This document shows, piece after piece, positions 10,203 through 62,302 of a DNA stretch of 64,000 nucleotides (its first letter is position 1; each line of letters opens with the position of its first letter). The notes beneath the pieces are model-generated. The model saw only the letters and a list, made by a program, of their open reading frames with translations. It was not told the DNA's origin and ran no database searches. Source of the DNA: Methylobacter tundripaludum. GTDB lineage: Bacteria > Pseudomonadota > Gammaproteobacteria > Methylococcales > Methylomonadaceae. The stretch spans positions 62,001 to 126,000 of the forward strand of contig NZ_PTIY01000009.1 in assembly GCF_002934365.1 (NCBI RefSeq), read 5' to 3'. The translations under genes were made by a program, and so were the position numbers.

Positions 10203-10226
10203 ACGCTGTAAGGCGGATGATTTCAT

Positions 10227-10252
10227 CGTTCCCACGCTCCAGCGTGGGAACG
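10227..10252. repeat. Palindrome of the CGTTCCCACG family
   Basis: A perfect 12-bp stem (CGTTCCCACGCT paired with AGCGTGGGAACG) encloses 2 nt. Related full or half copies sit near 10594, 10679, 11625, 55234, 55335, 57293, 59612, 59834 and 59940. The family is therefore dispersed through intergenic DNA here. It often precedes or follows the sequence GCGCTGCGTCC. Confidence 0.75.
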
Positions 10253-10290
10253 CAGTCCCAGACGCTCTGCGTCGTCTTGCAAAACAATGT

Positions 10291-10538
10291 GTCGCTACCG
10301 CGACGATTGATTTGATCGGGTTCTCGCACCCGAGGGCGAGATACTTTCTTTTGCGTCGCCAAAAGAAAGTATCCAAAGAAAAGGCGACCCGGTTGCCGCT
10401 TGCTTCCTGCGTTCCTCGCTTTCGACGGGGGTTGACGAAAGGGGCTCCTGCCCCTTCGTCAACGTGCGGCCTCCCTGCCGCACCCCTCACGGGCTGTTCC
10501 CGGCGAAAGCTCCGGTACTCGGCGCGGCAGACGGGATT
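10291..10538 (+). repeat. Structured five-hairpin element, left copy
   Basis: Reading the plus strand, five hairpins occur in order. H1 is 10291-10304 (GTCGC stem). H2 is 10316-10333 (TCGGGT/ACCCGA, 6-nt loop). H3 is 10340-10373 (14-bp perfect stem, 6-nt loop). H4 is 10431-10463 (8-bp lower stem, one bulged A, 6-bp upper stem, TCCT loop). H5 is 10464-10483 (7-bp stem, 6-nt loop). A 48-nt core at 10491-10538 is identical to that of the right copy. Between copies, stem differences are mostly paired changes. Reading frames through it differ between copies and look spurious. It could be a structured RNA gene or a mobile DNA element that folds as single strand. Confidence 0.8.
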
Positions 10539-10774
10539 AAACTCGTAACACAGGCAAGTTTTCTTCGCTCTTATACGACGATTCTCGATTACTTGTTCCC
10601 ACGCGCTGCGTCCTGTATTTGTAAGGCCTATATTTCAACACATTAACCACGACTCGCGGCGCAGCGCGCCTTGACTGCGTTCCCACGCAGCGCGTGGGAA
10701 CGAGGCAAAAACGTTTTTTGCATAACAATAAACGCTGTGCGAGAACGAAGGAAATTTGCCGGTAGTAGGAGCTC

Positions 10775-11024
10775 AATCCCGTCTGCCGCGCCGAGTACCG
10801 GAGCTTTCGCCGGGAACAGCCCGAAAGGGGCGCTGCATGGATGCAGCGCGTTGCCAGAGGGCCAGGGATGGCCCTTCTGGCAACCCCCGGCGAAAGCGAG
10901 GAACGCAGGAAGTAAGCGGCAACCGGGCCGCCTTTCTTTTGGATACTTTTCTTTGGCGGAGCAAAGAAAAGTATCTCGCCTTCGGGGGCGAAACCCCGAT
11001 TCAATCAATCGTCGCGCTAGCGAC
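10775..11024 (-). repeat. Structured five-hairpin element, right copy (opposite strand)
   Basis: This is the inverted copy of the left element; read on the minus strand it has the same order. H1 is 11011-11024, H2 10982-10999 (TCGGGG/CCCCGA), H3 10942-10975 (14-bp perfect stem) and H4 10850-10884 (8-bp lower stem, one bulged A, 7-bp upper stem, TCCC loop). H5 is 10830-10849, and the 48-nt core at 10775-10822 is identical to the left one. About nine base pairs differ by double, pairing-preserving substitutions. The copies face each other around a spacer of about 236 bp with diverged flanks and CGTTCCCACG repeats. Confidence 0.8.
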
Positions 11025-11229
11025 ACCTTATTTTGCAGTATGGGACGCGCTGCGTCCTGTGTTTGACTAGAAAATCAATGGGTCAGTGTGCAAGGCTTTA
11101 TTGGTATTTGGCTTTTAACAAGTCATGAAAGGCTTATTATCTATAAAATGCTAGTAATTTGATTATCTGCATCCGTAATCTCGCACGGTATAATCAGGGA
11201 AGTATCCCAACCATCATCAAAATACAATC

Positions 11230-37302: not shown

Positions 37303-37379
37303 CGGGGTATAGCGCAGTTTGGTAGCGCGCCTGCTTTGGGAGCAGGATGTCGGGAGTTCGAATCTCTCTACCCCGACCA
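37303..37379 (+). tRNA. tRNA-Pro (TGG)
   Basis: The 77-nt cloverleaf has encoded CCA. The acceptor is CGGGGTA/TACCCCG and the anticodon stem CTGCT/AGCAG encloses TTTGGGA with anticodon TGG. The T-loop TTCGAAT is intact. Confidence 0.97.
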
Positions 37380-37384
37380 ATTTA

Positions 37385-37461
37385 GCGCTTGTAGCTCAAC
37401 CGGATAGAGCACCGGCCTTCTAAGCCGGGGGTCGCAGGTTCGAGTCCTGCCAAGCGCACCA
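37385..37461 (+). tRNA. tRNA-Arg (TCT)
   Basis: The 77-nt cloverleaf has encoded CCA. The acceptor is GCGCTTG/CAAGCGC and the anticodon stem CCGGC/GCCGG encloses CTTCTAA, giving anticodon TCT. It starts 6 nt after tRNA-Pro, so they are co-transcribed. Confidence 0.96.
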
Positions 37462-37483
37462 TTCGTAGAAAATCCCATATTAT

Positions 37484-37560
37484 GGTGAGCGTAGCTCAGT
37501 TGGTAGAGTCCCGGATTGTGATTCCGGTTGTCGCGGGTTCGAGCCCCGTCGTTCACCCCA
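37484..37560 (+). tRNA. tRNA-His (GTG)
   Basis: The 77-nt cloverleaf includes the G at position -1 and encoded CCA. The acceptor is GTGAGCG/CGTTCAC, extended by G(-1):C73, and the anticodon loop TTGTGAT gives GTG. The extra 5' G is the histidyl-tRNA synthetase identity element. Confidence 0.96.
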
Positions 37561-61826: not shown

Positions 61827-62302
61827 AACCCGAGCGCTTCGACGAAGGCCGGTTTGAGTTCGGCGAATCGGTCCGGGTCACCCGAAACGTGCGCAACGAC
61901 GGCACTTATCCGGGCATGGACGTCGGCACTTTGTTGATTCGCCGGGGCAGCGTCGGCAATGTCATTGAAGTCGGCACTTTTCTGCAGGACCAAGTTATTT
62001 TTACCGTGCATTTCCTGAATCAGGGACGGATGGTCGGTTGTCGCCTGGAAGAATTGATAGGCGCTGACGAGCCCTGGAATCCCAGCCGTTTCGAGTTCAG
62101 GGACAAGGTGGTTTGCACTATCGATTTAGGCATTGCGGGCAATATCCTGTTCGCCAAAGGCACGGAAGGAGAGGTCTTTAAGGTGATCAGGGATAACGAG
62201 TTGATTCAATACCACGTCGCTTTTCAGGGCAGGGTCCTGCAGGTGCCTGAGACAGCGCTTGCCCCGGCGCATCCCGAGTCATTTTGTGAACCGGAGGTTT
62301 GA
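61823..62302 (+). CDS. nifZ: Nitrogenase maturation protein NifZ
   Basis: The 159-residue protein contains two tandem NifZ-type small beta-barrel units (FEFGESVRVTRNVRNDGTYP, then FEFRDKVVCTIDLGIAGNIL), each ending in a xVxF strand (FTVHF, YHVAF). NifZ assists P-cluster formation on the MoFe protein. It is coupled to nifW, and nifM follows directly. Confidence 0.93.
   Translation: MKPERFDEGRFEFGESVRVTRNVRNDGTYPGMDVGTLLIRRGSVGNVIEVGTFLQDQVIFTVHFLNQGRMVGCRLEELIGADEPWNPSRFEFRDKVVCTIDLGIAGNILFAKGTEGEVFKVIRDNELIQYHVAFQGRVLQVPETALAPAHPESFCEPEV

Follow-up and report, generated by a model that had tools for sequence, protein, structure and literature searches.

Background

What kind of element do two inverted, strongly folding repeats in the genome of Methylobacter tundripaludum represent, and do they act as DNA or as RNA? 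The window analysed here is the stretch of 64,000 nucleotides at positions 62,001 to 126,000 of contig NZ_PTIY01000009.1 (assembly GCF_002934365.1); positions below are counted from its first letter. The initial annotation of this window described the two copies as five-hairpin elements and offered two options, a structured RNA or a mobile DNA folding as a single strand.

Natural triple helices in bacterial DNA have so far been proposed from motif counts. Many related copies, such as those collected here, let evolution test the triplex idea, the third strand tracking its stem through several changes, and structure, strand and function become directly testable through this covarying third strand. 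We propose, with about even confidence, that these copies are two arms, facing inward, of a single non-autonomous, paired, strand-folding DNA repeat unit.

Two convergent arms in the window

The two inverted copies are present as annotated: the left arm (10287-10536, forward strand) is oriented inward and the right arm (10777-11028, reverse strand) converges with it. Aligned together with their flanks, the window copies have a mean column identity of 91%. All parts given below lie on the strand of their arm. Hairpin H1 (GTCGC/GCGAC) is found at 10291-10304 in the left arm and at 11011-11024 in the right. Pseudoknot 1 occupies 10316-10340 in the left arm, where the stem TCGGGT/ACCCGA lies in 10316-10333 and the loop CTCGC pairs with GCGAG at 10336-10340; its right counterpart (10975-10999) has the stem in 10982-10999 and the downstream partner at 10975-10979. 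Pseudoknot 2, with a triplex-like linker, covers 10342-10388 in the left arm (type 1 stem TTTCTTTT at 10342-10371, linker AAAGAAAA from 10375, loop partner GCGAC with its last base at 10388) and 10927-10973 in the right arm (type 2 stem TTTTCTTT in 10944-10973, linker AAAAGAAA on the 3' side). The 3' domain of the left arm (10388-10535) consists of an outer stem (10388-10399/10524-10535), a closing stem (10419-10429/10499-10509) and hairpins H4 (10431-10463) and H5 (10464-10483); that of the right arm (10778-10927) has the same parts at 10916-10927/10778-10789, 10886-10896/10804-10814, 10850-10884 and 10830-10849, respectively.

The core reported as 48 identical nucleotides is identical in both copies, its true length being 49 bases (10490-10538 and 10775-10823). 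In the spacer between the arms (10539-10774) no cargo gene was accepted as real, and the reading frames through the copies themselves are without support as genes. The fold of each window copy is far better than that of its dinucleotide shuffles, with z of -6.15 and -5.97 and none of 200 shuffles as good in either case.

REP-like palindromes of the TTCCCACGCTCCAGCGTGGGAA and GGGACGCGCTGCGTCC types crowd around and inside the window pair (10221-10273, 11034-11065 and 10601-10709), and similar REP-like stretches recur in relatives from the same genus. Elsewhere in the window, three tRNA genes stand in a row at 37303-37557.

Distribution and orientation of the copies

The copies are dispersed, with a patchy distribution over the class. 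The genome of the window organism (4.18 Mb in 45 contigs) contains 19 matches, 7 of them near full length. The element is carried by 33 of 61 genomes of related groups, this one included, by 69 of 274 sampled genomes of the class, and by 27 of 299 genomes in a sample of the phylum, where 23 belong to the same class (the window organism included) and 4 weaker cases lie outside it. At least 119 stretches with the element come from named genomes. Among the matches listed, the hosts include Methylomonas, Polaromonas, Acidovorax, Thiobacillus, Dyella, Lysobacter, Xanthomonas, Silvimonas, Psychromonas and two Desulfo- records. Searches of plasmid and phage collections by blastn gave no match to the element.

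Among neighbours lying no more than 3 kb apart, 51 pairs converge, 4 diverge and 4 point the same way. This count is based on 224 of 229 matches (150 of 155 plus 74 of 74 present in the alignments), short ones being left out, and it contains two artefacts of overlapping matches, L134 counted as convergent and L150 as divergent. A second sample, made of same-contig matches from the phylum search with the window organism's genome excluded, gave 23 convergent, 1 divergent and 2 same-way cases among the matches listed; one pair (in genome G167) is common to both samples. At the divergent neighbours L141, L195 and L254 the outer ends are just 34-59 bp apart, so that they are perhaps touching units of a cluster. 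In those Methylococcales pairs that were measured, the distance between the arms runs from about 40 bp to 2.3 kb. Three units from beta- and other gammaproteobacteria, folded whole, each form one large imperfect palindrome of about 500-700 bp, and genome G142 contains three units of about 600 bp that are 89-91% identical and located at different places (L130, L384, L385).

The gene region upstream of the window locus is present in all 23 genomes of the genus. No empty site was found in the 14 downstream stretches (several of which end at contig ends) or in L050. By blastn, these 15 stretches lack the window reading frames from 11230 on and share short repeats only, L371 having 47 bp near 11114-11160; in five of them (L372, L373, L382, L383 and L050) the element is at the same place as in the window.

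The outer flanks of 76 pairs are rich in G+T on the strand reading into the arm (0.62 and 0.64 over 60 nt), a richness that spans about 150 nt and fades by 300 nt. An outward inverted extension of at least 12 shared bases was found in the flanks of 8 of 75 pairs, compared with 1.2% of shuffled pairings; as a general trait of the pairs it was rejected, being present in a minority.

Fold of the arm and covariation

The starting point for the structure was a set of 84 distinct copies of nearly full length from Methylococcales, of which a script dropped 12, mostly near-copies. The alignments of the two halves were hand-picked from the remaining 72 and contain 64 copies for the 5' half and 60 for the 3' half, near-copies and copies with insertions or gaps being omitted.

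The 5' half consists, in this order, of H1 and pseudoknots 1 and 2. In pseudoknot 1 the loop pairs with a GCGAG-like strand further downstream; in pseudoknot 2 the stem is T/A-rich and 12 bp long, and the partner of its loop lies past an A-rich linker. A multibranched domain comes next in Methylococcales: this 3' half is closed by its closing stem and contains H4 and H5 as well as a short stem that does not vary, and an outer stem, invariant for the most part, connects the two halves. The five-hairpin model of the initial annotation has to be revised: H2 and H3 turn out to be H-type pseudoknots, and the closing and outer stems had been missed.

Standard pairs make up 96.1% of the 5' half and 95.4% of the 3' half, against 85.5% and 78.5% with partners shuffled. 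The covariation score reaches 0.287 against 0.100 in the 5' half and 0.444 against 0.130 in the 3' half, none of 500 shuffles being as high, and sliding the partners by 1-3 columns abolishes the signal. Cells in which both sides of a pair have changed number 200 and 342, respectively, against 55 and 94 in shuffles. Further pair types in the 5' half, the one of five measures not above shuffles, number 31 against 30.0 (189 of 500 shuffles). The compensatory stem changes noted in two copies are borne out by strong covariation over many related ones, the opposite of what the initial annotation had named as telling against it, namely many aligned copies lacking significant covariation. Together with the folding of the window copies relative to shuffles, this supports its view that structure, not reading frames, is under selection. 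One pair, at A2 columns 81-114, holds in just 16 of 64 copies and should be dropped from the structure model.

The suggestion that the identical core marks a functional site is weak, because the model that finds matches widely across the class does so through the other, 5' half. The identity of the 49-base block is in part local: across the Methylococcales set the block is near-invariant in pieces only, and the few units from beta- and other gammaproteobacteria compared by eye have a different 3' half. Some arms are longer by about 47-48 bases, always at the same position (L047, L050, L084, L299-L303), or by about 60 in L083. This position is element base 70, where the loop of pseudoknot 2 meets the 3' arm of its stem.

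A linker that mirrors its stem

The linker of pseudoknot 2 repeats the purine arm of the stem in mirror order and in triplex register: stem TTTCTTTT goes with linker AAAGAAAA, and stem TTTTCTTT with linker AAAAGAAA. Stem and linker are concordant in 80 of the 84 Methylococcales copies; the other 4 are damaged, and none is a hybrid. A pattern search in which variable bases were left free gave 132 matches in public genomes and two viral contigs, 129 of them concordant (70 of one type and 59 of the other) and 3 irregular, one with a mispaired stem; no sound stem of one type was found with the linker of the other. The covariance model gave 199 matches, many from the same loci as the pattern matches, and 190 of them have the hairpin. 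Here the mirror arrangement was better in 156, the direct one in 4, and 30 were ties; the linker does not fully mirror the stem in about 10 of the 190. The triads in these matches are T-A.A (1286) and C-G.G (204), against 4 of T-A.G, 2 of C-G.A and 24 others. Four further exact stem types, TTTCTCTT (8), TTTCTTTC (5), TTTTTCTT (4) and CTTTCCTT (1), obey the mirror rule too.

When these columns are left out of the tree, the stem type has to change at least 11 times, with 5 of the changes required by supported branches; in all five supported independent pairs the linker changes along with the stem (p 0.06, too few on their own). As the switch of all three strands fits in 42 bases, exchange of a segment between arms could move the module in one step, and the independent inventions of stem and linker types may be fewer than counted.

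A hairpin of a pyrimidine and a purine arm, followed by a third purine block that mirrors the purine arm, is the arrangement of class II intrastrand triplexes, and it is found here. Judged by sequence, the relation has, on the sense strand, the geometry of a putative intrastrand triplex of the purine motif; the opposite strand would have that of the pyrimidine motif.

Genes between the arms

In some pairs, one or two unrelated genes lie between the arms. Those with a family match encode GIY-YIG and Shedu SduA proteins (L051), GIY-YIG and a protein without assigned function (L049), DUF3644/PDC-S19 (L054), HEPN-RES (L053), a PtuA-like piece (L052), an AAA/OLD-like, AriA/GajA-like ATPase (L224), NYN (L218), a nucleotidyltransferase with a T5orf172 protein, giving PDC-S09 and PD-Lambda-1-like matches (L399), an ion channel (L133) and a methyltransferase (L290). 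Further cargo consists of many small, membrane or unknown proteins without family match. In two members of the genus (L049, 1613-4414, and L051, 3058-5020) the left flank, compared by eye, and the GIY-YIG gene are common and the second gene differs, as if cargo had been swapped.

PADLOC matches at E <= 1e-10 were obtained for 7 of 30 cargo proteins and for 4 of 20 neighbours outside pairs (p 1.0), these being 20 of the 39 proteins listed there. Enrichment of the cargo in defence genes was rejected, since the rate does not differ from that in neighbouring genes; SduA in L051, PDC-S19 in L054, the PDC-S09 and PD-Lambda-1-like matches in L399 and the AriA/GajA-like protein in L224 are striking single cases, not enrichment.

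Possible traces of mobility

No dedicated transposase for the pairs was found, nor did this analysis find a protein recognising the arms. Over 76 pairs, no consistent target duplication was present at the pair ends, the best 12 settings of the scan having at most 2 full matches of at least 3 bases. Dinucleotide matches inside the arms are commoner than chance (13 against 4.8 in shuffles) and were not read as target duplications.

In Methylobacter-type genomes, single copies are located inside a MITE with TIR CTGATGTTACGCA and direct repeats of 7-8 bp, as seen by eye (for example L007, L064, L069, L071 and L300 to L303; L003 is also listed among the MITE-borne copies). Nested in a MITE with duplications, these single copies spread with it, so that their dispersal may not stem from the element itself. 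The copies in G032 and G027 sit in another repeated unit.

Alternative explanations

A rather unlikely alternative is that the arms work at the RNA level: once transcribed, each might serve as a terminator, an insulator or a structure in a 3' UTR, to name examples. Telomerase RNA contains a major-groove triplex pseudoknot with a U-rich third strand, and the antisense strand of pseudoknot 2 has the same strand order and a U-rich third strand. The location of the pairs speaks for such a role: the nearest reading frames that a crude ORF caller finds are close (medians 77.5 and 79.5 nt), and convergent reading frames are over-represented around the pairs (20 of 54, compared with 32 of 188 other neighbouring ORF pairs, p 0.003). 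RNA families usually tolerate many G.U pairs, yet the close set has no surplus of them on the sense strand, with 23 G.T and 47 A.C among 4024 pair cells (pairs A2 columns 81-114 and A3 columns 35-122 left out); the excess of A.C has p 0.006, the cells not being independent. In the wide set, H1 and pseudoknot 1 have 126 G.T against 24 A.C, as RNA would predict, but G.U pairs were favoured by the covariance model behind this alignment, which leaves the strand test short of decisive. Once its outermost pair is omitted, whose 55 A.C cells are evidently unpaired in distant taxa, the second stem is balanced, with 5 G.T and 7 A.C. GTAG REPs have been taken as possible RNA owing to their G.T pairs, according to the text of PMC3733652; against an RNA stands the lack of any Rfam family at gathering score for the element. 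Both options of the initial annotation stand, DNA being favoured, not firmly, as about twice as probable as RNA, because G.T does not exceed A.C in the close set, the copies form inverted pairs, units of about 600 bp recur at three places and single copies are nested in a MITE.

Long palindromes are unstable, and the stems have almost no faulty pairs and few intermediates changed on one side alone, as would be the case if the copies were passive, functionless repeats whose complementarity is kept by hairpin-templated correction and homologous recombination. We hold this to be improbable: such correction copies inverted, not mirrored, sequence, so that a linker tracking its stem is not expected from it, and a spread this wide and biased in orientation is hard to reach passively. 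The arms could also be REPs or long TIRs of a tyrosine transposase (a REPtron or TIRtron), in line with the RAYT found between them at four loci (L083, L267, L170 and L216; the genes of L311 are those of L216). These RAYTs are, however, flanked by GTAG REP hairpins of their own, on both sides at L267, L170 and L216 and on the left only at L083, and their relatives outside pairs have GTAG REPs as well. Moreover, a pair encloses just 2 of 30 and 3 of 30 RAYT loci in two sets (two loci common to both, some cut by contig ends). RAYT was accordingly rejected as the mover, mobilization by it being very improbable, and because of their own tagged hairpins the enclosed RAYTs look like passengers. No RAYT relative was confirmed in viral contigs.

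A proposed paired, strand-folding DNA unit

Under our preferred reading, a non-autonomous DNA unit with two inward-facing arms, the unit would become single-stranded during replication, repair or transfer. Each arm would then fold into a knotted, triplex-locked end, and the pair might be handled as one palindromic mobile or copy-prone unit able to carry genes. A bolder version, which we find doubtful, is an undescribed class of mobile gene cassettes: an accessory or defence gene would lie between two convergent arms, folded as single-stranded DNA with two pseudoknots, one of them locked by a covarying triple helix, and the whole would be moved by a recombinase and spread over Gammaproteobacteria, the former betaproteobacteria included. 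Should the pairs prove to be cassette ends, they would offer a route for one-gene cargo, some of it defence-like, that we did not find described in the literature searched.

Comparison with known systems

The element was called apparently undescribed, and this agrees with our searches: it matches no Rfam family at gathering score (below threshold, RsmW has E 0.0037 and Pseudomon-Rho E 0.042), no named family was met in what was searched, and no description of it appears in the texts searched, figures and supplements apart. Integron cassettes have one attC each, in a single orientation. The present units share with them strand-folded ends and one-gene accessory cargo, and differ in having two convergent arms. 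MITEs are short, non-coding and dispersed. The arms are likewise, and single copies sit inside one MITE family; MITEs are described in the text of PMC3733652 and PMC3116915. In contrast to MITEs, the pairs are without consistent target duplication.

Hoyne and Maher reportedly worked on the intrastrand triplex motif, or PIT elements. According to the main text of Holder et al. 2015 (PMC4666352), the TM_ECO/PIT repeat is a G/C-rich intrastrand triplex repeat of 34-37 nt, intergenic, sometimes in inverted pairs and tied to genome instability; its authors report no transposase or integrase nearby, and the word pseudoknot is absent from that main text. Like TM_ECO as described there, the present element combines a hairpin with a purine third strand in mirror order, is intergenic and occurs in many copies in Proteobacteria, some in tandem inverted pairs. 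Unlike it, the triplex here is A/T-rich and lies inside a loop-to-downstream pseudoknot, the arm is about 250 nt long and some pairs enclose genes. The TM_ECO consensus CCCTCNCCC..GGGNGAGGG..GGGNGAGGG was not seen in the arm sequences inspected by eye. A TM_ECO-like motif, also noticed by eye, stands directly outside five left arms (L052, L057, L115, L153, L224).

REPINs resemble the units in that two inverted copies form one palindromic unit; 93% of 430 REP doublets are inverted according to the text of PMC3116915, and inverted doublets are found here too. REPs, as described in the same text, are short, tagged and tied to RAYTs, whereas the arms exceed them in length several times over, and neither a tag nor a link to RAYTs was found for them. 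The tag of REPs, GTAG or CGTC, stands at the hairpin foot; at the arm feet of the window pair there is no GTAG, which occurs at 10762 in the spacer and, as complement, at 10295 in the H1 loop. TIRtrons are defined, in the text of PMC3733652, by a tyrosine transposase between repeats, and their likeness lies in long inverted repeats around genes and in dimeric repeat families, some of them self-complementary. Here the cargo is varied, the RAYTs have their own REPs, and at the RAYT loci examined the arms are not the own ends of the tyrosine transposase gene. The GGGGWSAS motif, given in that text for many TIRs, is absent from both strands of the window pair; the distinction from TIRtrons follows their description in the text, as the TIR sequences of PMC3733652 appear in figures only. 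Overall, the element looks like mobile DNA in a form not met in the texts searched, its closest kinds being the intrastrand-triplex repeats (TM_ECO), REPINs and TIRtrons.
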